DNA from: Desulfosudis oleivorans Hxd3
GTDB taxonomy: Bacteria; Desulfobacterota; Desulfobacteria; Desulfobacterales; Desulfosudaceae
DNA length: 64,000 nt
Direction of reading: 5' to 3'
Assembly: GCF_000018405.1 (NCBI RefSeq)
Contig: NC_009943.1
Span: 1,491,001-1,555,000 of the forward strand
The position numbers and the translations under genes were made by a program. Positions 5,328 through 21,979 of the stretch are shown piece after piece. The stretch's first letter is position 1, and the number at the start of each line of letters is the position of its first letter. Under the pieces are notes generated by a model that worked only from the letters and a program-made list of their open reading frames with translations, was not told where the DNA came from and searched no databases.

Positions 5328-5654
5328 TCAGACAACGGCGTCAATCTCTTCCCCGTGACGAATGATCTCGTCAATAAGGTTGCCGCCATTTGCAAAGGTT
5401 TTTGAATTAAACGGAATCGGCTCGATCCGGTTGTTGATGGCCCGTCTCAGCGGAACAATTCTGCGCCTGTCTTCAAACCGGTCTCCGGTAAATTTATCAG
5501 AAATAAGGGCAATATCAACATCGCTGTCTTCACCGGCCGCCCCCCTGGCCCATGAGCCGAAAAGCAGAACCCGCTGAACAGGAATGCTGTTTTCCCTGAG
5601 CGTGGCGCCATATCTTCTTATATCGCGGATGACGGCATCTTTTGTTGGAGCCAT
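5328..5654 (-). CDS. Minimal nucleotidyltransferase (MNT) domain protein, orphan antitoxin type
   Basis: The 108-residue protein starts at ATG 5654, which has AGAGGAAA upstream; a longer frame to 5723 lacks such a site. It carries the polymerase-beta-fold signature GSWARGAAGEDSDVD (GSxARG then DxD) of the MNT family. These proteins usually pair with a HEPN ribonuclease and block it by AMPylation. No convincing HEPN gene is next to it: upstream lies a 72-codon frame (5618-5836) without the RxxxxxH-type motif. It sits immediately beside the decayed tRNA-Leu, a typical place for leftover mobile-island cargo. Confidence 0.75.
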   Translation of the reverse strand: MAPTKDAVIRDIRRYGATLRENSIPVQRVLLFGSWARGAAGEDSDVDIALISDKFTGDRFEDRRRIVPLRRAINNRIEPIPFNSKTFANGGNLIDEIIRHGEEIDAVV

Positions 5655-5937
5655 TGTTTTATTTCCTCTATCCGGCGCATATAGTCCGTGGCAAAAGGTT
5701 TTATTCGTCTTGTCCATGGCCACGAGAAAGGTGCCTGCAAAACCATTACTGCTGAATCGAACTGTGCTATTTTAGTACGGTTTTCAGAAATTGCAAACAG
5801 TAAGCGGCGACGGTCAAACATTTCAGTTGACACCATCGGACAACGGCATTATATTTTTATCCAGCTGTTTGACAATCTTGCTTGTGAATCCATTTTTTAA
5901 ATGGACATAATCAGGCCCTGCGAGATCTGAAAAAGTT
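5655..5937. other. Gene-poor stretch upstream of the nucleotidyltransferase
   Basis: About 280 bases hold no gene I can support. A minus-strand frame at 5618-5836 could encode 72 residues ending RRIEEIKQWLQQKMP and overlaps the nucleotidyltransferase start by 37 bases. It has no family signature and may be the worn stump of a toxin partner. The rest is AT-rich leader for the plus-strand genes that begin at 6050. Confidence 0.35.
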
Positions 5938-8110: not shown

Positions 8111-9622
8111 ATGGGGGAATCAATCCTATTCTGCTGGCTGGGTATGACAGATCTGAGGGCGGCTGCCGGAGAGCCGGCCGCCGGCTTGGGGCCGGTGGCG
8201 CAGTCTCTGGCGGCCCGCTCCTACAGGGAAGTTGTGCTGCTCAACAACTGGGAAAAGGCCAAGGCACAGAAATATATTGCCTGGGTGAAAGACAAAGCTA
8301 CCAGTCCGATCACACTCAGGCAGGTCAAACTTTCTTCCCCCACCAATTTTGGCGAGATTTACGAGGCCGCTGCCGCGATTATTTCCGAGAAACGCCAAGA
8401 GCATGGCCCGGATGCCGATCTGGTCTTTCACCTGAGCCCTGGCACGCCGGCCATGGCAGCCGTGTGGATTATTCTGGCCAAGACACGCTTCCCAGCCGAA
8501 TTAATCGAGTCTTCCAAAGAGCATGGCGTGCTCACAGCCTCGGTTCCCTTTGACATTTCAGCTGACTTCATTCCAGACCTGCTAAGCAAGGCCGACAAAA
8601 CCCTGGAGCATCTGGCTGCCGGCCTCCCTGCCGCCGCCCCCGAATTCGACGACATTATCCACCGTAGCGAGGAAATGCAGCGGATCATACTCATGGCAAG
8701 GCGGGTGGCCCCCCACGCTATTCCTGTATTGATAGAAGGTGAATCCGGAACAGGCAAAGAGCTGCTGGCCCATGCGATCCATAACGCCAGCCCCCGGAAA
8801 GAAAAACCGTTTGTCGCCATCAACTGTGGCGCTATCCCTGCCGAACTGGTCGAGTCTGAGCTGTTTGGTCATGAAAAGGGCGCTTTTACCGGTGCGGCCT
8901 CCAAGCGGATTGGCTATTTTGAGGCAGCGCATCAAGGGACTATCTTCCTGGACGAAATAGGGGACCTGCCCAGGGAAATGCAGGTCAAGCTGCTGCGTGT
9001 CCTTCAGGAAGGCGAAATCCAGTCGATTGGCGGAACCCGCCCCCGAAAGGTGGATGTAAGGGTTGTCGCAGCCACAAACAAAAACTCGATTGATGCTGTG
9101 GCCAATGGCACCTTCCGCGAAGACCTGTTTTACCGTCTGGCCGTTGCAGTGATCCGGTTGCCGGCCCTCCGGGGCCGCAAAGGTGATATCAGCCTGCTGA
9201 TTGATTCCTTCTGGGAACAGATCAACAAAGAAAGTGGTCATGACGCTGCATCGAAACACAAGAAAATTTCTGCACCCGCAAAAAATCTTCTACTTCAGCA
9301 CCCCTGGCCGGGTAATATCAGGGAGCTGCAAAACACCCTGACCAGAGCAGCGGTATGGTCGACAGGCAAGATCCTCACGGAAAAAGATGTCCAAGAGGCT
9401 TTTCTTCCGGTTTCTGTTGATGATAAAACAAACGAACAAGTTCTTAACCGGCCGCTTGCGCAGGGCATTAACCTTCCGGAAATAATAGAAATGGTTGCTG
9501 TGCATTATCTTGAAAGAGGGCTGGCCGAAGCCCATGGCAATAAAACAAAAGCTGCCAGAATGCTGGGTATGCCCAGCTATCAGACACTGACCAACTGGCT
9601 CAAGAAATACGGTTTGGAATGA
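8111..9622 (+). CDS. Sigma-54-dependent activator with CARF-like N-terminal sensor domain
   Basis: The 503-residue protein has three parts. Residues 1-165 form a Rossmann-like domain with ILFCWLGMTDLRAA at the first strand and LVFHLSPGTPAMAAVWIILAKT (about 104-125), the SPGTPxM pattern seen in the CARF domain of RtcR. Residues 185-420 are the AAA+ sigma-54 interaction domain: Walker A GESGTGKE (210-217), GAFTGA loop (257-262), Walker B TIFLDEIGD (277-285). The last 40 residues are a Fis-type helix-turn-helix (GNKTKAARMLGM). There is no receiver domain, so it should sense a ligand, likely a nucleotide or RNA end, not phosphorylation. A consensus sigma-54 promoter starts two bases after its stop. 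No rtcA/rtcB is nearby. The start lacks a clear ribosome site. Confidence 0.88.
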   Translation: MGESILFCWLGMTDLRAAAGEPAAGLGPVAQSLAARSYREVVLLNNWEKAKAQKYIAWVKDKATSPITLRQVKLSSPTNFGEIYEAAAAIISEKRQEHGPDADLVFHLSPGTPAMAAVWIILAKTRFPAELIESSKEHGVLTASVPFDISADFIPDLLSKADKTLEHLAAGLPAAAPEFDDIIHRSEEMQRIILMARRVAPHAIPVLIEGESGTGKELLAHAIHNASPRKEKPFVAINCGAIPAELVESELFGHEKGAFTGAASKRIGYFEAAHQGTIFLDEIGDLPREMQVKLLRVLQEGEIQSIGGTRPRKVDVRVVAATNKNSIDAVANGTFREDLFYRLAVAVIRLPALRGRKGDISLLIDSFWEQINKESGHDAASKHKKISAPAKNLLLQHPWPGNIRELQNTLTRAAVWSTGKILTEKDVQEAFLPVSVDDKTNEQVLNRPLAQGINLPEIIEMVAVHYLERGLAEAHGNKTKAARMLGMPSYQTLTNWLKKYGLE

Positions 9623-9623
9623 G

Positions 9624-9640
9624 TTGGCACGGTCATTGCT
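9624..9640 (+). promoter_or_regulatory. Sigma-54 (-24/-12) promoter of the restriction operon
   Basis: TTGGCACGGTCATTGCT matches the sigma-54 consensus (TGGCACG-N4-TTGCW) at every defining base. The -24 GG is at 9626-9627 and the -12 GC at 9638-9639. Transcription would start near 9650, about 25 bases before hsdR ATG 9676. The partner activator is encoded immediately upstream, which explains how the operon could be switched on. Confidence 0.88.
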
Positions 9641-9675
9641 GTGACAACAGACAACTTTAACTTTGGGTGGCACTG

Positions 9676-12039
9676 ATGAGCCGAAACGAAAAACAGACAT
9701 GCACAGACTTAATTGAACCAGCCCTTACAAAAGCCGGCTGGCAATGGGATAGTCAGGTCACCATCGGCCTCGGGCGGGTCAATATTACTGGCGATACCAT
9801 GTATGATGAAACGCAGACAATTATTGCCGACTATGTTCTGCGCTATTATGGTGCGCCACTGGTCGTCCTTGAAGCCAAAGCAGAGTCGATCTCTGCTGCC
9901 GATGGCATGCAACAGGGATCGCGTTATGCGGGACGGCTGGACATCCGTTTTTCCATCGCCACCAATGGCACCGACTGGGTTCTTACCGACAATGATTCTG
10001 GCAAATACGAAACGCTTTCTGCGCCGCCATCGCCGGAAGCCATCCTCACACATCACGGCATTTCCATTGACTGGGATCAATGGGGCGAGGTCTTTTCAGC
10101 TGGGTACCATATTGATCAAGTCTCTCGCAAAGTAGTCAGGCCATATCAAGATGTGGCCATCCATAAAACCCTCTGGCATTTTGCCGGTGGGAATAACCGA
10201 GCCCTTCTGCTGATGGCAACCGGGACAGGAAAAACATTTGTCGTTTTTCAGTTGGTCTGGAAATTGTTAAACACCAGTATCCTGAAGCGCCAGCACATCC
10301 TTTTCCTGACCGACCGTAATTCGCTTAAAGATCAGGCCTACCGGGCTTTTGCCGCTTTTTCCACCGATGAACGCGTCACCATCAACAAGGATACCGTCGC
10401 CAATGGCCAGCACCAGGTTGGTAAAGTGTTCTTCGCCAATTATCAAAACCTGGATGAAGAACTGGACGGCAAAAAAATCTTTGAGCACTACGACCAGGAC
10501 TTTTTTGATCTGGTCATTATCGACGAATGCCATCGGTCCGGATTCGGCGACTGGTTTGGCGTGCTGGAACATTTTAACTCCGCCCTGCAGATGGGTCTTA
10601 CCGCCACGCCCCGCGAACTTGAAGAAGGCCGCCGCGTTTTGACTGAAGAAGAAAAACGTCGCGATACCTATGAATACTTCGGTGCCCCGATCTACACATA
10701 CAGCCTTAAGCAGGCTATTGAGGACGGCTATCTTGTTCCCTACCTGCTTGAAGAACGCATTACCAACGTCGATGAAGAAGGCTACACCGGGCTGGACGGC
10801 AAACACTATACGACAGCCAACTTTGAACGCGATATCCGCATGCCGGACCGTACCACAGCCATTGCTGAAGACCTTTGGGAAATCTTAGGGCAATACGACT
10901 TGCGAGATGAAAAAAGCATTGTCTTCTGCGTGGACGATACCCATGCGGCGTTCATGGCTGCTGAACTGCGGCGCCTGTCAGGAGACGATGATTATGCCGG
11001 CCGCATAGTTCGTTCAGAACGCAACAGTCATCAGCTGGAACGCAACTTTGCCACTGTCGGTTCCACCAAACCCCGCGTCGCCGTAACCGTGGATCTTTTA
11101 ACCACTGGTTTCGACGCTCCAGATGTAAAAAATATCGTTTTTGTAAGACCACTTCGAAGCGCCATCCTTTACAAGCAGATGAAAGGGCGCGGCACCCGCC
11201 TCTGCGAGGATATCAATAAACGGTATTTTACCATTTTCGATTATTCCGGTGCCAGTCAACTTGAAGATGCGGAATTTGACGGCCATCCGGCCAACCGGCA
11301 GAAAGGGGCTCAACCCAAAACCAAGCCGCGGAAGAAAACCGACGAGCCCGCCGCAAAACCGGCGGGTGAAGGCATCTCGGTGGTTATTTCCGACACCAAC
11401 CGCTATGTCTGCCTGGCGGATGGCCGCAAGATCCCCTTTGAGGAGTATACCGAGCAGTCGAGGAACTTTATCCTCGATGTTTCAGCCAAGTCCCTTGACG
11501 AGCTGCTCACCATCTGGATCGACAAGAACAGCCGCAAGGAGTTGCGTGAGGAGCTGCGGGACCATGATATTTATCCGTCCGCCTTCCGCCATTACCTTGA
11601 ATTGCCGAAGACCGACGATGTGGACATCCTGGCCAAAATCGGCTTCAACCTGGTGCGAGTGCCAACACGCCCACAGCGTGTAGAGCGTTTCTGGAAGGAT
11701 GAGGCCCAATGGCTGGAATATGAATTGGGGGCAAATAGAGTTAATAAAGCACAAGTGTTCTCATTTCCTAAGTCTCAACCCATGGATAAGGTTGCGGACC
11801 CCGAGCCCGGCTACCGTTCGTCAGATCCCTTCAAAGTATTATTCTGGCAATGCGCCCTTGACCATTACCAGTTGTTCGGAATCGATGATCTGGAGCAGGC
11901 CCGGACCTATGGCGCCCCCCAGTTTGTCGCACAGTTCGGCAGTTTTCAAACCCTGACCAGCCGTTACGGCGGGCCGCAACTATTAAAAACCGACCTGGAG
12001 GCGGTAAAGCACCACCTCTATGTACCCATGACTGTATAA
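9676..12039 (+). CDS. hsdR: Type I restriction enzyme R subunit (EcoEI/type IB-like)
   Basis: The 787-residue protein begins with a PD-(D/E)xK nuclease core (Asp52 in ADYVLRYYG; Glu66-Ala-Lys68 in VVLEAKAES). A superfamily 2 translocase follows, with Walker A ATGTGKT (181-187), DECH box (283-286), TATPRE, and the helicase C-terminal motif TTGFDAPDVKNIVFVRP with QMKGRGTR. The end resembles the EcoEI R C-terminal domain that binds the methylase core. It would translocate and cut unmodified foreign DNA. ATG 9676 follows GGGTGG; a GTG nine bases earlier has no site. It is the first gene of the sigma-54 operon. Confidence 0.93.
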   Translation: MSRNEKQTCTDLIEPALTKAGWQWDSQVTIGLGRVNITGDTMYDETQTIIADYVLRYYGAPLVVLEAKAESISAADGMQQGSRYAGRLDIRFSIATNGTDWVLTDNDSGKYETLSAPPSPEAILTHHGISIDWDQWGEVFSAGYHIDQVSRKVVRPYQDVAIHKTLWHFAGGNNRALLLMATGTGKTFVVFQLVWKLLNTSILKRQHILFLTDRNSLKDQAYRAFAAFSTDERVTINKDTVANGQHQVGKVFFANYQNLDEELDGKKIFEHYDQDFFDLVIIDECHRSGFGDWFGVLEHFNSALQMGLTATPRELEEGRRVLTEEEKRRDTYEYFGAPIYTYSLKQAIEDGYLVPYLLEERITNVDEEGYTGLDGKHYTTANFERDIRMPDRTTAIAEDLWEILGQYDLRDEKSIVFCVDDTHAAFMAAELRRLSGDDDYAGRIVRSERNSHQLERNFATVGSTKPRVAVTVDLLTTGFDAPDVKNIVFVRPLRSAILYKQMKGRGTRLCEDINKRYFTIFDYSGASQLEDAEFDGHPANRQKGAQPKTKPRKKTDEPAAKPAGEGISVVISDTNRYVCLADGRKIPFEEYTEQSRNFILDVSAKSLDELLTIWIDKNSRKELREELRDHDIYPSAFRHYLELPKTDDVDILAKIGFNLVRVPTRPQRVERFWKDEAQWLEYELGANRVNKAQVFSFPKSQPMDKVADPEPGYRSSDPFKVLFWQCALDHYQLFGIDDLEQARTYGAPQFVAQFGSFQTLTSRYGGPQLLKTDLEAVKHHLYVPMTV

Positions 12040-12055
12040 GCAAGGAAGTTCATCA

Positions 12056-13528
12056 ATGACCAGTAAAATCGACCATCGCCGCCAGGAAGTCCAGCAGATC
12101 GTGAAAAATGCCTGCGACCAACTGAACCAGGAAGGTGTCGACGCCCGCAACTATGTGGAGCAGTTGGCCTGGCTCTTTTTCCTCAAGGCCTTTGACGAGG
12201 CCGAGACCCGTCGAGAGCAGGAGGCAGATTTTGACGACACCGCCTACGGACGTCGCCTGTCCGGGCAATATGCCTGGTCCAGCTGGGCCAGAAACACCGA
12301 CCATCCTGATCAGATGCTGGAGTTTGTAGATGGTAAGCTGTGGATCAAACTCACCAGCCCGGACCCCCAAAAAGGGCTGGGCGATGATCTGCTGGCTCAG
12401 CGGTTTCGTCGCATTTTTGACAATGTACGCAACTACTGCCGTCGGGGCATCTCTTTTGCCAGAGTGGTTCAACAGGTCGACAAACTGCATTTTTCCAGTG
12501 AGACCGATGTGATTGTGCTCTCGGAAATCTATGAAGACCTGCTGAAACGGGTGGCCGCCGACTCGGCCGGCTATGCTGGCGAGTTTTATACCCAGCGCCA
12601 TATCATCCGGGCCATGGTAGAGGTGGTTCAGCCAAAACCCAAAGACAAGGTGTATGATCCCTGCTTCGGTACTGCCGGCTTTTTGGGAGAAGCCGCAGAT
12701 TATATCCGGCGCAACAATACCTTGAGCGGTCCGCAGCTTGACGCCTTACAAAAGAAGACTTTTTACGGCCTGGAAATCAAGCCGCTTACCTATCTGCTTG
12801 GCACTATGAACATGATCCTGCACGGTATCGAAGGAGCCAACCTGGAGCTGACCAACACTCTGGAAATACACAGCCAGAACGTGGGGGAAAAGGCCAGATA
12901 TGACGTAATCCTCTCCAATCCGCCCTATGGCGGCAAAATGGCTTCGGGAATGCAGACCAATTTCAGGGTGCGTTCCAGCGCCACCGAGTGCCTGTTCCTT
13001 CAACACATTATGGCCAACCTGGCCAAAGGCGGCCGGGCCGGTGTGGTTATCCCCGAAGGCGTCCTTTTCCGGGGTGGCCCGGATCAGAAGGTACGCAAAG
13101 AACTTTTGGAGCAGTTCAACGTCCATACTATCCTCTCCCTGCCGGCTGGCTGCTTTCTGCCATATACCGGCGTCAAAACCAATGTCATCTTTTTTGACCG
13201 GCCCAAAGATGACAGCGGGACAAAAAGCGTCTGGTTCTGTGAGCTGACCAACGACGGCTTTGAGCTGAAGTCCACCAGAAAGCCCATAGAAGGGGACCAG
13301 CTTCCGGACTTTCTGGCCAAGTGGGAAAAAAGAAAGGCGGGCGACAACTCCTGGACCGTGCCGATCGAAAAAATTATCGAGCAAGGCTACGATCTGTCGG
13401 CCAAAAACCCGAACCGCAAGGATGAATACGAGCACCGCCCGGCCCTGGAGCTGGTTCAGTCCATCAAGGCCAAGGAAGAGCGGATCATGGATCTACTGAA
13501 TGAGCTGGAAGGGATTTTGGAGAAATAG
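12056..13528 (+). CDS. hsdM: Type I restriction-modification methylase M subunit
   Basis: The 490-residue protein has the HsdM N-terminal helical domain (1-140) and the N6-adenine methylase domain. Motif I is DPCFGTAG (201-208), and the catalytic motif IV is NPPY (288-291) within VILSNPPYGG; both are intact. With HsdS it would protect host DNA by adenine methylation, and with HsdR it would form the restriction complex. It begins 16 bases after hsdR and ends two bases before hsdS. Confidence 0.95.
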   Translation: MTSKIDHRRQEVQQIVKNACDQLNQEGVDARNYVEQLAWLFFLKAFDEAETRREQEADFDDTAYGRRLSGQYAWSSWARNTDHPDQMLEFVDGKLWIKLTSPDPQKGLGDDLLAQRFRRIFDNVRNYCRRGISFARVVQQVDKLHFSSETDVIVLSEIYEDLLKRVAADSAGYAGEFYTQRHIIRAMVEVVQPKPKDKVYDPCFGTAGFLGEAADYIRRNNTLSGPQLDALQKKTFYGLEIKPLTYLLGTMNMILHGIEGANLELTNTLEIHSQNVGEKARYDVILSNPPYGGKMASGMQTNFRVRSSATECLFLQHIMANLAKGGRAGVVIPEGVLFRGGPDQKVRKELLEQFNVHTILSLPAGCFLPYTGVKTNVIFFDRPKDDSGTKSVWFCELTNDGFELKSTRKPIEGDQLPDFLAKWEKRKAGDNSWTVPIEKIIEQGYDLSAKNPNRKDEYEHRPALELVQSIKAKEERIMDLLNELEGILEK

Positions 13529-13530
13529 GA

Positions 13531-14688
13531 ATGCTGCCGACTTTAAATTCTTCCTGGAAAACACAGCCACTTAACCAATTATGTTTGGTTGTTATGGGCC
13601 AAGCACCTAAAGGGGACACTTATAATGAAAATACCCTTGGGACTCCTTTGATTGCAGGGGCTGCTGATTTGGGACTCATTCATCCATCCCCCAAAAAATG
13701 GACGACTTCTCCAACAAAAACAGGCAAGGCTGGGGATATCATTCTGTGCGTGCGCGCTACAATTGGAGATTTGAACTGGGCAGACTCGAAGTATTGTTAT
13801 GGTCGTGGCGTATGCGGCCTTCGTATAATTGAAGGACATGATCCAGAATTTTTATGGTTTTGGTTGATGGCGTGCAAGGATCATTTATTGAGCTTAGGCC
13901 GAGGTGCGACATTTAAACAAATTTCAAAAACTGACATTGCGAATTTGCCAGTCCCAGCGTTAGCCGTCGACGAACAGCGCCGCATCGTCGCCCGCATCAA
14001 GGAGTGCATGGAGCGGGTGGAGGAGATTGAGGGACTACGGGCGGAGGCCATGCGGGAGCGTGGCTATCTCCTGGAGTCCCTGATTGAGGCAGAATATCAG
14101 GAGGCTGATGGAGAAAAGGTTACGCTCGCTGATGTTTGCGCAATCACGTCCAGCCTAGTTGATCCAAGAGCGCCTCAATATATCGACTTATTACATATCG
14201 GAGGCGGAAACATCGAAGCGAAAACAAGTAAGCTTGTTAATTTGAAAACAGCCCGAGCGGAGAAACTCAAATCAAGCAAGTTTACCTTTAATGATTCAAT
14301 GGTGCTGTACAATAAAATTCGTCCTTACCTGATGAAGGTCGCTCGTCCTGGTTTCTCAGGTCTTTGCAGTGCCGATATGTATCCGTTATTCCCTGCTCCT
14401 CAAAAATTGACCAGAGATTATCTATTCTATTTACTTCTTTCTCGACATTTTACGGATTACGTAATTGCTGGCTCTAATCGTGCTGGTATGCCAAAAGTTA
14501 ACCGCAAACACCTTTTTGCCTATAAATTCACTTTACCTTCGACCCAGAAACAGCAGCAGATCACCGAATCTCTAGACGATGCTGTTGCTGCAGTTGAAGA
14601 GTTGCAAACAGACATGGCAGCAAGCACCTCGGAGGTAAATGCTTTACGCCAATCCATTCTCCATAAAGCCTTTGCCGGAGAACTGTAA
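13531..14688 (+). CDS. hsdS: Type I restriction specificity S subunit
   Basis: The 385-residue protein has the usual two target-recognition domains, each followed by a helical spacer. TRD1 covers about residues 8-145, followed by the helix DEQRRIVARIKECMERVEEIEGLRAEAMRERG. TRD2 covers about 195-350, ending in KQQQITESLDDAVAAVEELQTDM. Both should each read half of a split DNA target. The DNA is clearly more AT-rich than hsdM, which is common for exchanged specificity genes. It is tightly packed between hsdM and the fusion gene. Confidence 0.92.
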   Translation: MLPTLNSSWKTQPLNQLCLVVMGQAPKGDTYNENTLGTPLIAGAADLGLIHPSPKKWTTSPTKTGKAGDIILCVRATIGDLNWADSKYCYGRGVCGLRIIEGHDPEFLWFWLMACKDHLLSLGRGATFKQISKTDIANLPVPALAVDEQRRIVARIKECMERVEEIEGLRAEAMRERGYLLESLIEAEYQEADGEKVTLADVCAITSSLVDPRAPQYIDLLHIGGGNIEAKTSKLVNLKTARAEKLKSSKFTFNDSMVLYNKIRPYLMKVARPGFSGLCSADMYPLFPAPQKLTRDYLFYLLLSRHFTDYVIAGSNRAGMPKVNRKHLFAYKFTLPSTQKQQQITESLDDAVAAVEELQTDMAASTSEVNALRQSILHKAFAGEL

Positions 14689-14693
14689 AAGCC

Positions 14694-17600
14694 ATGACAA
14701 CGCCTGATCAAAAAGAAATAAATGACCGGCTAAAAAATTTTTTAAAAGCGGATATGAAGCTGGCTATCGCCACCTTGCTTTATCTGCGCTGGGCTGACTT
14801 TCAGGAGGCAGAACTGGAAGCCATGGCCGCCTTTGAAGGCACGGAGTATGAGCCTGTTTTACCGGCATCCCTCCACTGGCGCACCTGGCATCAACTGTCT
14901 CCGGAAGATCTCTCCAATGTTTTAACCAGGCAGTTGCCTGTCGCCCTGGACCAGCTCAAAAATTTTCGGCACAATCCAATGGCCACGCATTTGCACCGTC
15001 TCGCGGCGCCAACCAGAAAATTGGGAGATCTCCCCCCCAAAATATTGGCTAATACTGTAAGCCGTTTGGCTGAAAAGCCCTTTGAGACCCCGGCAGATCA
15101 CCGCCGGGCGTTAAAAGACATTGATGGCCGTTTTGGTGAAGCCAAAGATGGCTATCATACGACACCACTTTATCTTACCAAGTTTATGGTCGAATTAGCC
15201 GCGCCTTCAAAAGGGGAGAGCATCTATGACCCCTGCTTCGGGACAGCTGATTTACTGATCACGACCATTGATCATGTTTCCGGGCAGCAGGAAAATACCG
15301 GGTATAACATGGAAAGTGTAAATATATCAGGGGTCGAAAAGAATATTTCCGCATATATCGTGGGGATGACGCGTTTGGTGCTGGCCGGCGCCAGTGACCC
15401 AAAGATTGAGCTGGGCAACAGCTTGGAACGCACAGCCCCTGCCAACCCACAGCAGGATGGATTTGATGTGGTTTTGGCCACCCCGCCCTGGGGGGCGATT
15501 CACAAGATACTTAAAGAAGAAATTGAGCTGAATGGAAAGTATTATCCTGTAAGGACAAGAGGGCGTGCAGGGCTCTTCATCCAGCATGCACTTGCCAACC
15601 TGCGGCCCGACGGCCGGGCAATTATTGCCGTCCCCCAGAGCCTGCTTTTCGGAGACACGGAAATAAATCTTCGCGCGTGGCTTATCGAAAATCATACTGT
15701 CGAAGCTGTCATCTCCCTCCCGCCGAATGTCTTTGGGGCCTTGATCAGCATACCATCAGGTATCCTGGTATTGCGGCGTGGGGGCAGCACAAAACAGATC
15801 CGCATGGTCAATGCTGAACCGTTTTTCGAGCAAGGTCGAGGTAAACAGCCCACGACTATTTCAGACAGTCAGATACACTCGCTGGTTGCCATGATACGCA
15901 ACCCGGAACAGTCCCAGTACTGCTGGGACGTTGAGGTGGAGTCTCTCGCTGAATTAGGATTTGACCTCACACCCCGTCGCCGTGATCGAAGCAGTCTTCT
16001 CGGTGTGCTTGATGAACTGAACAAGCTGCGTTCCATACCCATAGAACCTCTCAAGGAATGTTGTGAGATATTACATGGCTGCTCTATCCGATCTCATGAC
16101 TTGAAAGACACGTCTCCAGTAAGCCAAGAACTGGCGGCATTATCACTGGGTGCCATTAAAGAAGAGAGTATGGGGGAAAAGCAGCCAGGCAGCCTATCGT
16201 TAACCATTGAACCTGTTCCATATATTCGCATCAAAGACATTGAGAAAGGCCAGGTAACCAAAGGGACCTCCTGGATTTCAGAAAAAGCGATAGAGTTGGT
16301 TAAGGCATCCTGGAAACTACGAGCCGGTGATGTGTTAATCTCCAAGTCGGGCACCATAGGAAAGGTTGGCATAGTTTGCAACGGCGCCGTGGGAGCTGTT
16401 GCTGCAAGCGGTCTGTATGTACTGCGGCCGAAGGATGGCCGGATTGATCCTCATTTTTTGGTTGCCTATCTTGACAGCAACGAATGCCGGGCTTGGTTGA
16501 AAGACCGCGCCTCCGGTGGCGTTATTAACCATCTGAATAAACGGGCCATAGAAAACCTTCCCGTACCGATTCCTCCGCTGCAGATTCAGCATCGCGTGGC
16601 TGATGAGTTTCGGGAACATAAGGTAGACGCTCTTAATTATCTTATGGTAATTCTCTCTGGGAAAGGGCACGACTCAATTGCCGAATGGATCGAAAAGACG
16701 ATTAAAAAACTACCCTCTGATATGGAAAATAAAAGATTTCCGTTAGACCTTTCACTACTTGACCAACTTGCAAAAGAGGCGCAGGCCTTTGCTGATGAGA
16801 GGAACAGCGATGATAATAACAACGACCTGTTACCCTGGCTTCTTGCTTTTAGCCATTCTCTTAGGCCGCTTCAGGGGATTAATAGTCTGCCTCAAGGTCC
16901 TGGGATGCTCATTGCACTTAAAGAGTCAAAGCAGCGGATTGTAGGCATCACTAATATTAAGGGGGACAAACCAGCAAAAACCTTACGGAAAGTTATAGGT
17001 GCTGCTGTTGGGATAGGTGCAGCTGCTGGGACCACTTTTGCTGCAGGACCTTTAGGAGGGATCTTAGCCACCCCGTTTTTGCTCAAGGGGCTAACAGCAA
17101 AAACTAAAAAAAATATTAGTGAACTACCTGATATTGTATCAAAGTTGATTGATCTGGGTATGTCCACCCTTTTGGATGATATTAAGCTGGTCTTTACTGG
17201 CGAAGTTTCTTTTACCCAGCCAGGTGAGCTCCAGGAAATCGACCTGACCGTACAAAACCAAAGCCCATTGCCTTTGCGTGAAGTGGCTATATATGTTGAC
17301 ACAGCGAATGAAGGCAAACGGGTTGAATACTTGGCCGAAAACACAACAGAAACCTTAACTTTCAAGTTAACAACACCCCCAGCACCAGGAACATATATGA
17401 GAATGGTGCAGTGGTCTGCCGTAACCCTTGATGGCCTGCAATTAAATGGTGAACAAGAGATAGCATTTGAGTTTTCAGCCGACGGTGATCCGGATGAAGC
17501 TTCCCCAACAGAACTTGGTGGCAGCCCTTATGTGTGTGGGGACCCCATTGGTCCCGAGAGCAACGAAGTCTTTTTTGGTCGAGAGAAACTGCTTGAGCAA

Positions 17601-18782
17601 ATCCGTCGTCAAGTTGTTAAAAGCGGCAATGTTGTTCTACTGGAAGGGAACCGCAGGGCCGGAAAGTCATCTGTGCTTTGTCACCTGGAAGGTAATGGGC
17701 CTGTGCCGGGCTGGCTGGGCGTCTATTGCAGTCTGCAAGGCGCCGAAGGCAGCAAAGAGGGTGTCGGGGTCCCCACTGCCTCTGTTTTCCGTACGATTGC
17801 CATAAACATTGCCAAAGGACTGGCTACACTTGATGTCGAAGTGCCTTTGCCTGATGGCAGCCTTCTGCCAATGGGGGAGAAAAGAGGTATTGCAAAGGCC
17901 TGCCGCAAAGGGATCGGTGAAGAATCTCCTTTTGAGGATTTTTGTGAATATGCCGAGGTAGCACTTGATCTTGCCGCACAAAACAAACTGGGTATTCTGC
18001 TGATGCTGGATGAGTTTGACAAACTTCAGGAAGGCATTGATAACGGTATTACGTCTCCGCAGGTCCCGGAAAATATCCGTTATATGGTTCAGACTTATTC
18101 TGGATTCTCGGCCATTCTGACCGGCTCACGGCGACTGAAAAAATTGCGAGAAGAATACTGGTCGGCGCTCTATGGGCTGGGCACGCTTTTTAACGTATCC
18201 TCTCTTTCCCATGGAGCCGCGTCCAGGCTGGTGACAGAACCGGTTAAGGGCCGGTTGACCTATACCAGGGAGTCGGTTGAAAAGGCGATTTTTCTCACCA
18301 ATGGTCAGCCATTTCTATTGCAATGCCTTTGTAATCGGGTATTTGATATGGTAGCACAACTTAAAATCCGGGCCATTAGATTAGATATCGTAGAGCAGGC
18401 AGCCGACCGACTGGCCGAAAATAACGAGCATTTCGCCAGTCTCTGGGATTACGCCCAATCAGACCGTCGTCGATTTATTCTTGGGTTGATCAATAAGCAG
18501 ATGAAAGAGTCTGGCCTTATTACTTTGGCGCTACTTATTGAGCTGTTGGCTAATGATGGAATTAACGTGACTGATGATGAGCTCATTGAAGACATCGAAT
18601 TCCTGAGAGAATTGGAACTGATTGACCTTACTGGTGGCGCTGACAGTGGCGAATATACTTTATCAATTCCTCTTATGGGTAGATGGATTGACCGGCAGCA
18701 TGATTTTGCAATGTTAAGAAACAAAGCGCAAAGAGAAACAGAGGACCATGCGCAAGGTGAAACGGAGGACAATGATGACTGA
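14694..18782 (+). CDS. Giant fusion: HsdM-like methylase, HsdS-like TRD, beta-sandwich and AAA/STAND-type ATPase
   Basis: This 1362-residue protein joins modules not normally found together. Residues 1-430 are HsdM-like: motif I DPCFGTA (179-185) is intact, but motif IV reads TPPW (263-266) where D, N or S should stand, so catalysis is doubtful. Residues 450-645 are a single HsdS-like recognition domain (KLRAGDVLISKSGTIGKVGIV; NLPVPIPPLQIQHRV). Residues 766-800 are glycine/alanine-rich and hydrophobic. Residues 830-930 look like an Ig-like beta-sandwich. Residues 955-1250 are a P-loop ATPase with FFGREKLLEQI, Walker A GNRRAGKSS (985-993), Walker B ILLMLDEFDK (1101-1110) and a TGSRR sensor. 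A winged-helix-like end and an acidic tail follow. It starts five bases after hsdS and overlaps the next gene. Confidence 0.85.
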   Translation: MTTPDQKEINDRLKNFLKADMKLAIATLLYLRWADFQEAELEAMAAFEGTEYEPVLPASLHWRTWHQLSPEDLSNVLTRQLPVALDQLKNFRHNPMATHLHRLAAPTRKLGDLPPKILANTVSRLAEKPFETPADHRRALKDIDGRFGEAKDGYHTTPLYLTKFMVELAAPSKGESIYDPCFGTADLLITTIDHVSGQQENTGYNMESVNISGVEKNISAYIVGMTRLVLAGASDPKIELGNSLERTAPANPQQDGFDVVLATPPWGAIHKILKEEIELNGKYYPVRTRGRAGLFIQHALANLRPDGRAIIAVPQSLLFGDTEINLRAWLIENHTVEAVISLPPNVFGALISIPSGILVLRRGGSTKQIRMVNAEPFFEQGRGKQPTTISDSQIHSLVAMIRNPEQSQYCWDVEVESLAELGFDLTPRRRDRSSLLGVLDELNKLRSIPIEPLKECCEILHGCSIRSHDLKDTSPVSQELAALSLGAIKEESMGEKQPGSLSLTIEPVPYIRIKDIEKGQVTKGTSWISEKAIELVKASWKLRAGDVLISKSGTIGKVGIVCNGAVGAVAASGLYVLRPKDGRIDPHFLVAYLDSNECRAWLKDRASGGVINHLNKRAIENLPVPIPPLQIQHRVADEFREHKVDALNYLMVILSGKGHDSIAEWIEKTIKKLPSDMENKRFPLDLSLLDQLAKEAQAFADERNSDDNNNDLLPWLLAFSHSLRPLQGINSLPQGPGMLIALKESKQRIVGITNIKGDKPAKTLRKVIGAAVGIGAAAGTTFAAGPLGGILATPFLLKGLTAKTKKNISELPDIVSKLIDLGMSTLLDDIKLVFTGEVSFTQPGELQEIDLTVQNQSPLPLREVAIYVDTANEGKRVEYLAENTTETLTFKLTTPPAPGTYMRMVQWSAVTLDGLQLNGEQEIAFEFSADGDPDEASPTELGGSPYVCGDPIGPESNEVFFGREKLLEQIRRQVVKSGNVVLLEGNRRAGKSSVLCHLEGNGPVPGWLGVYCSLQGAEGSKEGVGVPTASVFRTIAINIAKGLATLDVEVPLPDGSLLPMGEKRGIAKACRKGIGEESPFEDFCEYAEVALDLAAQNKLGILLMLDEFDKLQEGIDNGITSPQVPENIRYMVQTYSGFSAILTGSRRLKKLREEYWSALYGLGTLFNVSSLSHGAASRLVTEPVKGRLTYTRESVEKAIFLTNGQPFLLQCLCNRVFDMVAQLKIRAIRLDIVEQAADRLAENNEHFASLWDYAQSDRRRFILGLINKQMKESGLITLALLIELLANDGINVTDDELIEDIEFLRELELIDLTGGADSGEYTLSIPLMGRWIDRQHDFAMLRNKAQRETEDHAQGETEDNDD

Positions 18783-20382
18783 TGTTAAATTCCCGATTTT
18801 AGGTATAGGTATCCCCCCTATGGTTGGCCGGGCAGATCTCATGCAGTGGTTATGGAATAACCTTACCAAGAAGTCGCCAAGCAATCTATCGATTGTGGGG
18901 CCGCGTTATGTCGGCAAAACAGTTTTAATGAATAATCTTGCCGAAAGAATGCGTCAGCCGGATTCGCCATATAATGCGGTTGTTTTTTGGGATCTGGGGC
19001 ATCAAACCCCGGACTCAGACCATGCCTTTTTAAAATCCTTTTGTCATAAGTTGGGACAAGAGCTGGCGGTGATTGGGAATGAATATGCAGAACACATTTT
19101 AGCACTTCAAGAAGAGGAGGGGATATATGAGGAATTGAAAGAAATTATCGATGCTATGCATAGCGATAAAATCAAAACGTTGATGGTTTGGGATGGTTTT
19201 GATCAACCGCTCAATAAAGACAACCTCACAAGAAATCATTGGGATAATTTACGGGAACTTTTTTCTAAGACGACGAGCCTGCGTTTGGTTACGGCCACCC
19301 GTCAGCCTATGAGTGAGTTACTCCGGAGTACAACGACCGCATCAAGTGATTTCTGGAATATTTTTGATCCGACACCATTGCAGGTGGGTATCTTTGATGC
19401 TCAGGACATAGTAGCGCTTATGAGTAAGGTCCCGGACCTTACGTTTACAAGCGGAGCTATGAGCGAACTGCAAAACTGGACGGCCGGTTATCCCATACTG
19501 TATTTATTTTTAATTAATCAAATTGTAAAAACAAGGGCTACTGGAGACATTGACAACCAGATAGTGAACCAGGTGGCAGAGGCCATCTCAGGCTCTGTTA
19601 ATAGCTATATCAGCTTTCTGTGGAAGGACTGTCCGGCCTCAGCAAAAGAGGCTTATCGATATCTGATAGAGCACAAAAAGGTCGACGCTGCCGATATTAA
19701 CAGCGTTGACCGTAAGTGTCTCGAGGAAAAGGGCTTTATCAAGGTCACTGGAAACAAGATAGAAAGTGGGTGTCGCTTTGCTGAACAATATGTAAAACAG
19801 AACGGGGATAACATCGGGAACATGGCGCGCTTGTTTCGTTTTTGGAAAGACTATCAAGAAAACATCCGCAGTGTACTTGAATTCCGCCTTGACCACTTGG
19901 TCTCGCTCAACGCCGACCTCCGAAGGCTTATCCAGAAAAGCATCGAAGATATTCCAGAACATCCGAGGGTCTGTCTTACCAATATTCGAGGGGTTGTCGA
20001 TCGTGCTTTGGATCTGATTTGGGACGCTGAGTTTGGGACAGGCAGGGCTGTGCCCGAAGCATGGTTTACAGAGTGGAAATATAACGGCGAGAAAGGTCCA
20101 CAAGATTATTGGGACAAAAAGTTTCCTTTCGCCAAACGTGGCCATCAAATTCACCTTTTAAAACTTATAACCGGAACAGACAAGAGCGACTCCAAGGCAA
20201 AACATATTTCCAGCAACACTTGGGCTCTCGCCAATTCAGCGCATGGATTCGGTGATTTTGGTCAACATCTCCCCCCAGGTGATATTCCTGTCGGAGTGGC
20301 AATCGCTGCTGTAAATACGTGCCTTGAACTGGCAGCGTGCCTGGAAAGTGAGCTGGGAGGGATTAACCCTGTCAATGCATAA
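18775..20382 (+). CDS. P-loop ATPase, partner of the fusion protein
   Basis: The 535-residue protein begins at ATG 18775, six bases after GGAGG, and overlaps the fusion gene by eight bases. Residues 1-300 are an AAA/STAND-like ATPase: MVGRADLMQWLWNNL, Walker A GPRYVGKT (42-49), Walker B LMVWDGFDQ (about 136-143) and a late GYPILYLF helix, the same order as in the fusion's ATPase. Residues 300-535 hold a winged-helix-like stretch and a helical domain I do not recognise (EAWFTEWKYNGEKGPQDYWD). It may form mixed assemblies with the fusion protein. No nuclease or membrane segment is visible. Confidence 0.75.
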   Translation: MTDVKFPILGIGIPPMVGRADLMQWLWNNLTKKSPSNLSIVGPRYVGKTVLMNNLAERMRQPDSPYNAVVFWDLGHQTPDSDHAFLKSFCHKLGQELAVIGNEYAEHILALQEEEGIYEELKEIIDAMHSDKIKTLMVWDGFDQPLNKDNLTRNHWDNLRELFSKTTSLRLVTATRQPMSELLRSTTTASSDFWNIFDPTPLQVGIFDAQDIVALMSKVPDLTFTSGAMSELQNWTAGYPILYLFLINQIVKTRATGDIDNQIVNQVAEAISGSVNSYISFLWKDCPASAKEAYRYLIEHKKVDAADINSVDRKCLEEKGFIKVTGNKIESGCRFAEQYVKQNGDNIGNMARLFRFWKDYQENIRSVLEFRLDHLVSLNADLRRLIQKSIEDIPEHPRVCLTNIRGVVDRALDLIWDAEFGTGRAVPEAWFTEWKYNGEKGPQDYWDKKFPFAKRGHQIHLLKLITGTDKSDSKAKHISSNTWALANSAHGFGDFGQHLPPGDIPVGVAIAAVNTCLELAACLESELGGINPVNA

Positions 20383-20423
20383 ATGCGTCACGACAATGGT
20401 GCGTTTTGTTACTGGAGGAATAC

Positions 20424-21050
20424 ATGGCAAACGAGAATGAGAAAAAAAGCAACGCTTTAGATAAACTTATCGGTTGGGCGATAGAAGCCGGGCAACAGGA
20501 TATTGACCAGTACGTTGAGAAATTAAGATCCCAAAATCCCGGCATCTCCCGTGAGGCTTTAGCCAAAAAAATCGTTCGCCGGAAATCGGTAAAAAGCGGG
20601 CTGGTCGGTGCCGGCACAGGGCTGGGAGGGATTCTGTCTCTTCCTGTGGCTATCCCGTTTGATTTGGCGGCTTCATGGAAAATTCAAATTTGCATGGCCC
20701 TTGCTGTGGCCCGTGTTTATGGCCACAATACAAAGACGGTTGATGTGAAAACCGACATCTACCTTATACTGGCTGGCGATGCCGTTAAAGAAGTTTTTAA
20801 AAAAATCGGAGTGGAAGCCGCAAAAGATGTAACAAAAAAGGCGGTGGAAAAATATATTACAAAGGATGTCATGAAAAAAATATGGAAAGTGGTTTCTCGC
20901 AAAATCATTACAAAAGCCGGCGAAAAATCGACCACAAGTTTTACGAAGATGGTTCCACTCGTTGGCGCCCCGGTTGGCTATGCGTTCGATTGGTTTGCCA
21001 CAAAAGCCGTAGGAAAAACCGCAATCCATTACTATAGCGGCGAGGGGTAA
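20424..21050 (+). CDS. EcsC-family protein
   Basis: The 208-residue protein has a helical N-terminus (ALDKLIGWAIEAGQQDIDQYVEKLR) and the EcsC-type core SGLVGAGTGLGGILSLPVAIPFDLAASW (about 58-85), followed by IQICMALAVARVYGHN. The glycine-rich hydrophobic segments suggest membrane contact. EcsC family function is not settled, though such proteins occur as likely membrane effectors beside defence and signalling genes. The start has GGAGG four to five bases upstream, 41 bases after the ATPase gene. The lysine-rich middle (KKIGVEAAKDVTKKAVEKY) is typical of the family's basic helices. Confidence 0.65.
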   Translation: MANENEKKSNALDKLIGWAIEAGQQDIDQYVEKLRSQNPGISREALAKKIVRRKSVKSGLVGAGTGLGGILSLPVAIPFDLAASWKIQICMALAVARVYGHNTKTVDVKTDIYLILAGDAVKEVFKKIGVEAAKDVTKKAVEKYITKDVMKKIWKVVSRKIITKAGEKSTTSFTKMVPLVGAPVGYAFDWFATKAVGKTAIHYYSGEG

Positions 21051-21142: not shown

Positions 21143-21979
21143 ATGGCTACATATCAAGCACTTTTTAAAAGATACAAGGAGCAGAAAGGCTCAGAAGTGT
21201 TTTCTCATTTTGGATGGAATGCCGCAGATGGGGAAAACTGGGAAACTCCTTTTGAAAAACTCGCACACATGGCAAAAAAAGAGGATTGGAATTTTAGGAG
21301 CCCTCAATTCAGAAAAGACGGGCAGAAATACCCTATTCTAATGAACTACCTTAACTACACATTTCTACGGATACAAGAATTAGGGTTGATTGCCTACTCT
21401 GATGATGGATCAAAGTCTTGTTTCAATACCGGCCTTCAAACAAAAAATGAAAAAGATATTTATGCTACTTTCTTTTTTAACCAAAATGCCGAAGAGTTGG
21501 GGAAACCTCAGTGGACGTTTTATAGTTTCGCCGATTCATACTCAGAGAAATTAAAACCGTTCAACCCTCTTCCTGAAGTTGCAACTTATATATCATACGC
21601 TAGAGATCTCGTATTTGAAACAGGTTACGAAATAGAAGTAAACACAGATCATATCGTCGACCACAATAAAGACAGACTGCCTGCTAATCTGAGAGAGGAA
21701 AGGACACTCTCTATCGCCGCGATTGAAGGTTCAACCCGTTTTCTAAAAGAAAAAATACGACGGAATTATAAAGTCGCCATACCTCATTGGTATTCTGGGA
21801 GAATACAACTTCTTTTGCCGCTAAATCTCACAAGCGACTATGAAGCGGATTTGGCCTTAGTCGCTGATCGTGACGATGACAGGAAAATATACAGAATCAG
21901 GACTGCACTTTCTATGGATATGGCTTATGTCAACGCCCGATTACTGTGCAGGCCAGACAGGGATTGGCTTAATCCATAA
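21143..21979 (+). CDS. DUF3825-like protein
   Basis: The 278-residue protein starts after GGAGAGG. It contains MNYLNYTFLRIQELGLIAYSDDG, FNTGLQTKNEKDIYATFFFN, a YEIEVNTDHIVDHNKDRLP segment and a C-terminal RIQLLLPLNL with LSMDMAYVNARLL, which together recall the DUF3825 family. That family has no established activity but is often next to defence genes. The DNA is AT-rich compared with the following pgpA gene, and the stop codon overlaps pgpA's start (TAATG). This makes it the right edge of the accessory region. Confidence 0.6.
   Translation: MATYQALFKRYKEQKGSEVFSHFGWNAADGENWETPFEKLAHMAKKEDWNFRSPQFRKDGQKYPILMNYLNYTFLRIQELGLIAYSDDGSKSCFNTGLQTKNEKDIYATFFFNQNAEELGKPQWTFYSFADSYSEKLKPFNPLPEVATYISYARDLVFETGYEIEVNTDHIVDHNKDRLPANLREERTLSIAAIEGSTRFLKEKIRRNYKVAIPHWYSGRIQLLLPLNLTSDYEADLALVADRDDDRKIYRIRTALSMDMAYVNARLLCRPDRDWLNP

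Follow-up and report, generated by a model that had tools for sequence, protein, structure and literature searches.

Why would a restriction operon with an apparently functional methyltransferase and specificity subunit encode a further protein that carries both kinds of domain joined to an ATPase? The question is raised by a stretch of 64,000 nucleotides from Desulfosudis oleivorans Hxd3 (NC_009943.1, positions 1,491,001 to 1,555,000, forward strand), referred to here as the window. The protein, given the working name MEGA, is the 1362-aa product of the open reading frame (ORF) at 14694-18782 on the plus strand, which begins with ATG and is intact. It combines an HsdM-like DNA methyltransferase (MTase) core, a target recognition domain (TRD) and a STAND/ORC-type ATPase, and it is encoded between a type I restriction-modification (R-M) cassette (HsdR, HsdM, HsdS) and a second ATPase, ATP2. 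A preliminary description of the locus proposed that the MTase is probably dead and that the protein may read DNA methylation rather than write it, passing the result to its ATPase. The analysis presented here gives an even chance to another reading, in which MEGA and ATP2 form a two-ATPase DNA sensor on the R-M cassette, with a fixed target of its own and with methyl transfer dispensable.

Domain architecture of MEGA

The motifs and domains of MEGA are the following:

15228..15254, plus strand: motif I, DPCFGTADL, with D186 instead of the glycine of 38 of 39 HsdM proteins and six of nine MEGA copies
15480..15491, plus strand: motif IV, TPPW, residues 263-266, with T263 instead of the asparagine of all 39 HsdM proteins
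16215..16604, plus strand: single TRD, residues 508-637 (PF01420 Methylase_S, E 1.8e-12)
16935..17093 (approximate), plus strand: glycine-rich hydrophobic insert, about residues 748-800, not present in six aligned homologues
17187..17474, plus strand: CARDB/Ig-like beta sandwich, about residues 832-927 (AlphaFold2, moderate confidence; weak CARDB match)
17511..18749, plus strand: STAND/ORC-type ATPase and winged helix, with Walker A at 17643-17672 and Walker B at 18000-18023

By profile, the N-terminal half has the N6_Mtase fold of type I MTases (Pfam PF02384, residues 151-429, E 1.7e-41, 143 bits against a cut-off of 20.4), and an MTase_I match spans residues 25-428, N-terminal region included. 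Pfam finds one Methylase_S stretch, where an HsdS has two TRDs. The AlphaFold2 model of residues 631-1362 (mean pLDDT 68, pTM 0.38) contains a seven-strand sandwich, for which the CARDB profile match is weak (E 0.11) and CARDB/Ig-type entries stand low in the Foldseek list. The ATPase retains an intact Walker A (EGNRRAGKSS) and an intact Walker B (LMLDEFD). Its Pfam matches to AAA_16 and nSTAND1 are weak and below cut-off (nSTAND1 18.8 bits against 27.1), and the Foldseek search of this moderate-confidence model, with ORC/Cdc6 matches at low TM-score, supports the domain class only. Pfam, the alignment and the model of the C-terminal half thus bear out the layout given in the preliminary description: MTase, TRD, insert, sandwich and ATPase in one chain of 1362 residues. 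Homologues in four phyla and an R-M layout that recurs at six loci exclude a chance ORF or a misassembly.

The MEGA family

Ten family members were found, nine of them readable through the MTase domain. A genome scan gave six full-length homologues, L037-L042, from Desulfobacterota, Armatimonadota and Verrucomicrobiota, and a seventh match, L043, limited to MTase residues. The fourth phylum comes from L060, an intact copy carried by a plasmid of Acinetobacter ursingii; a distant copy (L072) belongs to the phylum of L041 (Verrucomicrobiota), and L055 is a C-terminal half on a contig of 4447 bases. Two further A. ursingii plasmid copies look broken in their records and stand outside the family count; the motif counts exclude these two and the half copy.

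The family seems rare. A query with the C-terminal part (E <= 1e-30) found it in 4 of 389 genomes of the order, with weaker matches (E 1e-11 to 1e-24) in seven more, and in 4 of 389 genomes of the class, identical to the four from the order. The same query gave 2 of 288 genomes in the phylum of L041, 2 of 236 in its class, 2 of 93 in the family of L037 and 1 of 113 in the class of L039. These counts include genomes already known, and the searches score a few candidates per genome, so that copies may have been missed. With the full-length protein as query, 69 of 395 genomes of the phylum have matches at E <= 1e-20; those listed lie in the MTase region, one reaching into the TRD, with the window genome's own copy as the sole exception. 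Among viral contigs, 117 stretches fit the search pattern and none is a relative; in phage records, the ATPase part gave no match.

Is methyl transfer lost?

Active N6-adenine MTases carry (N/D/S)PP(Y/F/W) at motif IV. The window MEGA departs both from this formula and from the motif I glycine of active HsdM proteins. The background of 39 HsdM proteins leaves out L002 (the window HsdM again), L030 (a 900-aa frame) and the truncated HsdM of L041; in the alignment of 35 HsdM-type proteins from loci L002-L036, the window HsdM among them, the motif IV asparagine is present in all. Because two changes fall at positions conserved in HsdM, the window copy has probably lost methyl transfer. The TPPW at residues 263-266 is as the preliminary description had it. 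Motif I was called kept there, and residues 179-185 do read DPCFGTA, but the departure at the next residue, D186, went unmentioned. In the literature, PacII pocket double mutants that include the motif IV asparagine show lowered methylation (PMC9613975), and the side chain of the asparagine in BrxX is situated close to the amino group of the target (PMC11842806).

The other MEGA copies argue against a dead MTase as the rule of the family. The first residue of motif IV in L037-L042 is, in order, N, N, N, N, D and N, and all six have the motif I glycine. The plasmid copy L060 has HPPV at motif IV, asparagine at the motif I glycine, serine for threonine in motif X and aspartate for glutamate in motif II, while L072 has APPW and no recognisable motif I. 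Of 26 positions conserved in HsdM, 17 are kept in the window copy, 19-21 in L037-L042, 16 in L060 and 9 in L072. From these residues the MTases of L060 and L072 also look dead, and more degraded than that of the window. The claim of a dead motif therefore holds for the window copy, through T263 and D186, and fails as a family rule, which six of the nine readable copies exclude with N/D-PP-W/F. The preliminary description had stated that its reading would fall if homologues kept a functional motif IV and a methylation mark depended on the gene; as to the first, these six keep a plausible catalytic motif.

The window copy groups with the motif-keeping L037 in the full-length tree (support 95/97) and in the MTase tree (83/80), a grouping that the ATPase tree does not resolve. 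Its motif changes are therefore likely its own, and on the tree the loss in the window is likely separate from those in L060 and L072, whose long branches make their positions unsure. In the full-length, MTase and ATPase trees alike, the branch to the window copy has about twice the length of the L037 branch, which rules out an acceleration of the MTase domain alone.

Two other explanations turn on these data. MEGA may be a working second modification enzyme, similar in build to PglX/BrxX of BREX, which places its mark on a single strand at a fixed site of its own, with TPPW tolerated or leaving residual activity. This would agree with the six copies that keep N/D-PP-W/F, the motif I glycine and Thr157 of motif X, with a window MTase branch lengthened no more than the ATPase branch, and with the fused MTase and TRD, which is the layout of BrxX (PMC12839542). 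It is nevertheless fairly unlikely for the window copy, where both the motif IV asparagine (39 of 39 HsdM proteins) and the motif I glycine (38 of 39) are lost, and where the reduced methylation of the PacII double mutants (PMC9613975) speaks against tolerance. A decaying gene would account for two motif lesions and a doubled branch. It is highly improbable in view of the intact frame of 1362 codons and P-loop, a TRD conserved like that of other copies, and the overlapping start of ATP2.

Target recognition

The operon's own HsdM (with NPPY) and HsdS (with two TRD stretches) look functional, as had been supposed, and a reader of their mark would have its writer alongside. The comparison of TRDs across loci bears on this idea. 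In seven R-M cassettes, 38 of the 42 pairwise comparisons of HsdS TRD1 and TRD2 give at most 31% identity and the remaining four give 69-83%, beside HsdM proteins that are 78-93% identical (six full-length copies). This combination indicates that HsdS specificity is swapped between cassettes. In contrast, the core of the MEGA TRD (residues 500-640) has 42-71% identity in all 21 pairs from the same seven loci, with 40-65% for the MTase domain and 54-77%, the top range of all domains, for the ATPase. MEGA consequently seems to keep its own fixed target, so far as its sequence tells, and is unlikely to read a changing HsdS mark.

The reading in which MEGA senses methylation written by the operon's HsdM and HsdS and passes the result to its ATPase draws on the probably dead catalysis, the intact TRD and ATPase, and the HsdM and HsdS encoded next to it. 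With HsdS TRDs exchanged and the MEGA TRD conserved, the protein cannot follow a changing HsdS site, and the claim that it reads methylation state is disfavoured for this mark. It is possible that MEGA reads methylation at its own fixed site. As an alternative, the conserved TRD may bind protein instead of DNA.

As a separate observation, TRD1 of the window HsdS is common to L040 (69%) and TRD2 to L037 (83%), a plain instance of TRD shuffling between genera.

Neighbourhoods of the homologues

ATP2 lies immediately downstream of MEGA in all ten loci. HsdR, HsdM and HsdS are upstream in seven of nine (the window and L037-L042), with the HsdR of L037 split over two ORFs and the HsdM ORF of L041 truncated. 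RtcR-like regulators occur in five of nine: the window, L037, L038, L041 and L040 (3' end).

The two remaining loci are informative about the dependence on HsdM and HsdS. The L060 plasmid encodes a WYL-domain protein, HsdR, MEGA and ATP2. It has no HsdM other than MEGA, its sole other N6_Mtase match lying in a 2216-aa frame elsewhere, and the fetched stretch contains no other ORF similar to the window HsdS by similarity search, with the chromosome outside this scope. Within it (11684-19467), an HsdR with an intact-looking nuclease motif adjoins the dead-looking MEGA and ATP2. Either restriction here would proceed without modification, or the chromosome would provide help. Around L072, neither an HsdM nor an HsdS match accompanies MEGA; genes resembling those for biotin carboxylase and pseudouridine synthase lie upstream, a 186-aa ORF without a family follows ATP2, and three more N6_Mtase matches lie elsewhere in the genome. 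Together with the TRD comparison, these two loci make a reader of the HsdM/HsdS mark improbable.

The same loci bear on a further possibility, that MEGA is a weak or inactive partner in a mixed M1-M2 complex with HsdM and shapes assembly instead of signalling. The closest solved structures include both M subunits of entry 7vru, taken here to be PacII, and the MTase_I match extends over the N-terminal region. PacII M1M2S is a mixed type I MTase (PMC9613975). Such a role leaves the ATPase and the ATP2 partner unexplained, and no HsdM was found near MEGA in L060 and L072, so that it is judged unlikely.

Downstream of ATP2, the loci differ. L037 has an Hhe/PDC-S37-like helicase-nuclease, L038 the Druantia III genes DruH and DruE, L039 DrmD-like and TmtA-like genes, and L042 a SAVED-type protein with a CD-NTase, i.e., a CBASS-like pair. 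In L041, secretin-type and Vps62-type proteins follow, not recognisably defensive, while L060 has an IS5 transposase as the next gene annotated. Such downstream genes may be parts of the system or mere neighbours in defence islands.

Two further genes were observed within these cassettes: a TIR-domain gene between hsdM and hsdS in L042 (4859-5812) and an RmuC-family gene directly upstream of hsdR in L039 (4094-4873). The RmuC-like ShdA is mentioned with type I R-M in Pseudomonas in the CoCoNuT paper (PMC11090510).

The ATPase pair

The ATPases of MEGA (a moderate-confidence model) and ATP2 both resemble the STAND/ORC group and have intact P-loops. A HEPN RNase at the ATP2 C-terminus is a possibility at most: His507 is invariant in the ten rows of the alignment, but the profile scan of four C-termini gave a single weak match (HEPN_Swt1, E 0.098, in L042) and none in that of the window. 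Of the seven loci with weaker matches to the C-terminal query, two were examined, and both contain related STAND ATPase pairs (L058 9643-15352 and L059 5430-10804) with CARDB, TPR or TIR domains and without an MTase domain. The TIR/TPR-bearing pairs fit sensor-effector switches, as expected.

Proposed mechanism

MEGA would act as the DNA-recognition subunit of a two-ATPase sensor attached to the type I R-M cassette. Its N-terminal half, which corresponds to an HsdM-like core plus half an HsdS, would bind one fixed target, and the conservation of the TRD suggests that this target is independent of the companion HsdS. In most family members this half would probably methylate the target too, marking self as in BREX. 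In the window copy and two others, methyl transfer would probably be lost and the TRD and ATPase kept, which argues that target binding, not catalysis, is the retained function. Once the target is engaged, the STAND-type ATPase of MEGA would be switched together with its partner ATP2 (hetero-ATPase signalling), and the switched ATPases would license a response by HsdR and/or the co-transcribed genes, in the window EcsC and DUF3825. The window type would have to spare self in another way, possibly through sigma-54/CARF control or absence of the site.

The sequence itself shows the architecture, the two substitutions, intact P-loops, the constant pairing with ATP2, the sigma-54 promoter match and a TRD that is not swapped. 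The A. ursingii plasmid with no HsdM besides MEGA, the related STAND ATPase pairs and the BREX precedent of BrxX (PMC11842806) speak for the mechanism as well. Several points weigh against it. Binding of DNA and of S-adenosylmethionine, the MEGA-ATP2 complex and its signalling, the effector's identity and the loss of activity are steps that we infer. A plausible catalytic motif, N/D-PP-W/F, survives in six of the nine readable copies, so methylation may be important to most of the family. The well-supported branches force two changes between kept and lost motifs (one in the MTase tree), not three losses, and the window branch is doubled alike in all three trees. The L072 stretch contains no ORF besides MEGA that matches the window HsdR, HsdM or HsdS, and EcsC and DUF3825 are not among the identified downstream genes of L037, L038, L039, L041 and L042.

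A more specific version, in which the dead MTase-TRD scaffold is an immune sensor and base-flipping recognition of one fixed target triggers the paired STAND ATPases, is doubtful. If it is true, the stripped-down A. ursingii form (HsdR, dead-looking MEGA and ATP2) would direct type I-like restriction without self-modification. More generally, a STAND-type ATPase joined to a modification enzyme, with some lineages non-catalytic, would connect the self-marking of R-M with sensing of the NLR kind. It would also make it possible to test directly how restriction can distinguish self from foreign when no mark is written.

The window operon and its promoter

The genes form an operon-like run on one strand:

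8111..9622, plus strand: RtcR/PspF2-type regulator with CARF, sigma-54 activator and helix-turn-helix (HTH) parts (PADLOC RtcR_PspF2 672.6 bits; Sigma54_activat E 6.1e-72)
9625..9640, plus strand: sigma-54 (-24/-12) promoter match TGGCACGGTCATTGCT, 11/11 against the typed consensus, filling the gap between regulator and hsdR
9667..12039, plus strand: HsdR, EcoAI-like type I restriction subunit with a LEAK nuclease motif (NCBIfam EcoAI-type 510.2 bits, below the cut-off of 550)
12056..13528, plus strand: HsdM, NPPY intact (PF02384 231.6 bits; motif)
13531..14688, plus strand: HsdS with two TRDs (PF01420, two stretches)
14694..18782, plus strand: MEGA, MTase-TRD-insert-CARDB/Ig-ATPase-winged helix fusion, 1362 aa (ORF, Pfam, alignment, AlphaFold2)
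18748..20382, plus strand: ATP2, second STAND/ORC-type ATPase (profiles, alignment with homologues)
20406..21050, plus strand: EcsC-family protein (PADLOC candidate PDC-S29; Pfam), putative cargo
21143..21979, plus strand: DUF3825 protein (Pfam), putative cargo

Homologues suggest that ATP2 truly starts at the ATG at 18775, which gives an overlap of 8 nt with MEGA. The regulator has the CARF, AAA and HTH profile matches, and the sigma-54 promoter downstream, of an RtcR-type CARF sigma-54 activator; the Pfam RtcR profile alone reaches 17.7 bits, below its cut-off of 23.1, which weighs against this assignment. In L037 and L038 the regulator gene is followed directly by the identical 16 promoter bases; at the corresponding place in L040 the match is also 11/11, with another spacer. 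The consensus scan gave no match in L039 or in the interval from regulator to hsdR of L041, and it also returns scattered 10/11 matches (e.g., window 17027 and L042 222), its counts having no shuffle control behind them. Sigma-54 is encoded in the strain's own genome, where its DNA-binding domain was found. With one CARF/sigma-54 switch over R-M, sensor and further genes, the question arises of what keeps an inducible R-M system from cutting its own genome.

Three other features were observed. The glycine-rich insert of MEGA (16935-17093) resembles by eye, in composition, the glycine-rich hydrophobic stretch of the EcsC-family protein (20406-21050), and a common membrane role is possible. Outside the window, the genome has several further type I-like MTase loci (L003-L007) that could act in trans on the window system. 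At 5328-5723 on the minus strand of the window lies a small nucleotidyltransferase-like ORF, presumably with an MNT-type motif as judged by eye, which is a possible toxin-antitoxin partner.

Comparison with known systems

Type I R-M systems (the EcoAI-like cassette, PacII M1M2S) share with MEGA the MTase core and TRD profiles, and HsdR, HsdM and HsdS adjoin it. MEGA differs in that a single TRD is joined to the MTase, in its extra CARDB/Ig domain and STAND ATPase, in the ATP2 partner and, for the window copy, in its lost catalytic positions.

In BREX, an MTase+TRD protein is coupled to STAND/ORC ATPases (PMC12839542), and BrxX requires BrxB, BrxC and BrxZ for methylation in vivo (PMC11842806). 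The resemblance lies in the combination of an MTase+TRD fusion (BrxX/PglX) with STAND/ORC-type ATPases, namely BrxB (inactive STAND) and BrxC (ORC/Cdc6 ATPase). Unlike in BREX, MEGA carries its ATPase, with both Walker motifs intact, on the same chain as the MTase. MEGA scores 20.6 of 500 bits against the NCBIfam BREX-1 PglX profile, and none of the eight operon proteins has a PglZ, BrxC/PglY or BrxL Pfam match. The methylation-associated defence system (MADS) gives weak profile matches to MAD2, MAD5 and mad8. However, MEGA reaches 56.7 of 720 and 66.2 of 400 bits, far under the equivalog cut-offs, and ATP2 scores 21 bits with mad8. Likewise, no McrB-type Pfam match, as for a CoCoNuT, was found among the eight proteins. 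Membership of MADS, BREX or CoCoNuT is ruled out by these scores and absent matches.

A description of the MTase-TRD-CARDB-STAND fusion with an ATP2 partner was not found in the literature searched, with most subscription papers outside it, and the accessible parts of the RtcR-superoperon papers (PMC4012209, PMC11090510) do not mention the MEGA/ATP2 pair. The search also gave nothing on EcsC together with R-M, nor on TPPY alongside NPPY. A further related context is that of the RtcR/CARF superoperons, in which, as in the window, an RtcR-like regulator precedes type I R-M and further defence genes. RtcR-like regulators adjoining R-M systems were reported in 2014 (PMC4012209), and a paper of 2024 described superoperons that combine RtcR homologues with type I R-M, Druantia III and CoCoNuTs (PMC11090510). 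Thus the fusion and its partner appear undescribed in the literature searched, while the association of RtcR regulators with R-M and the coupling of MTase+TRD proteins to ATPases are already known.

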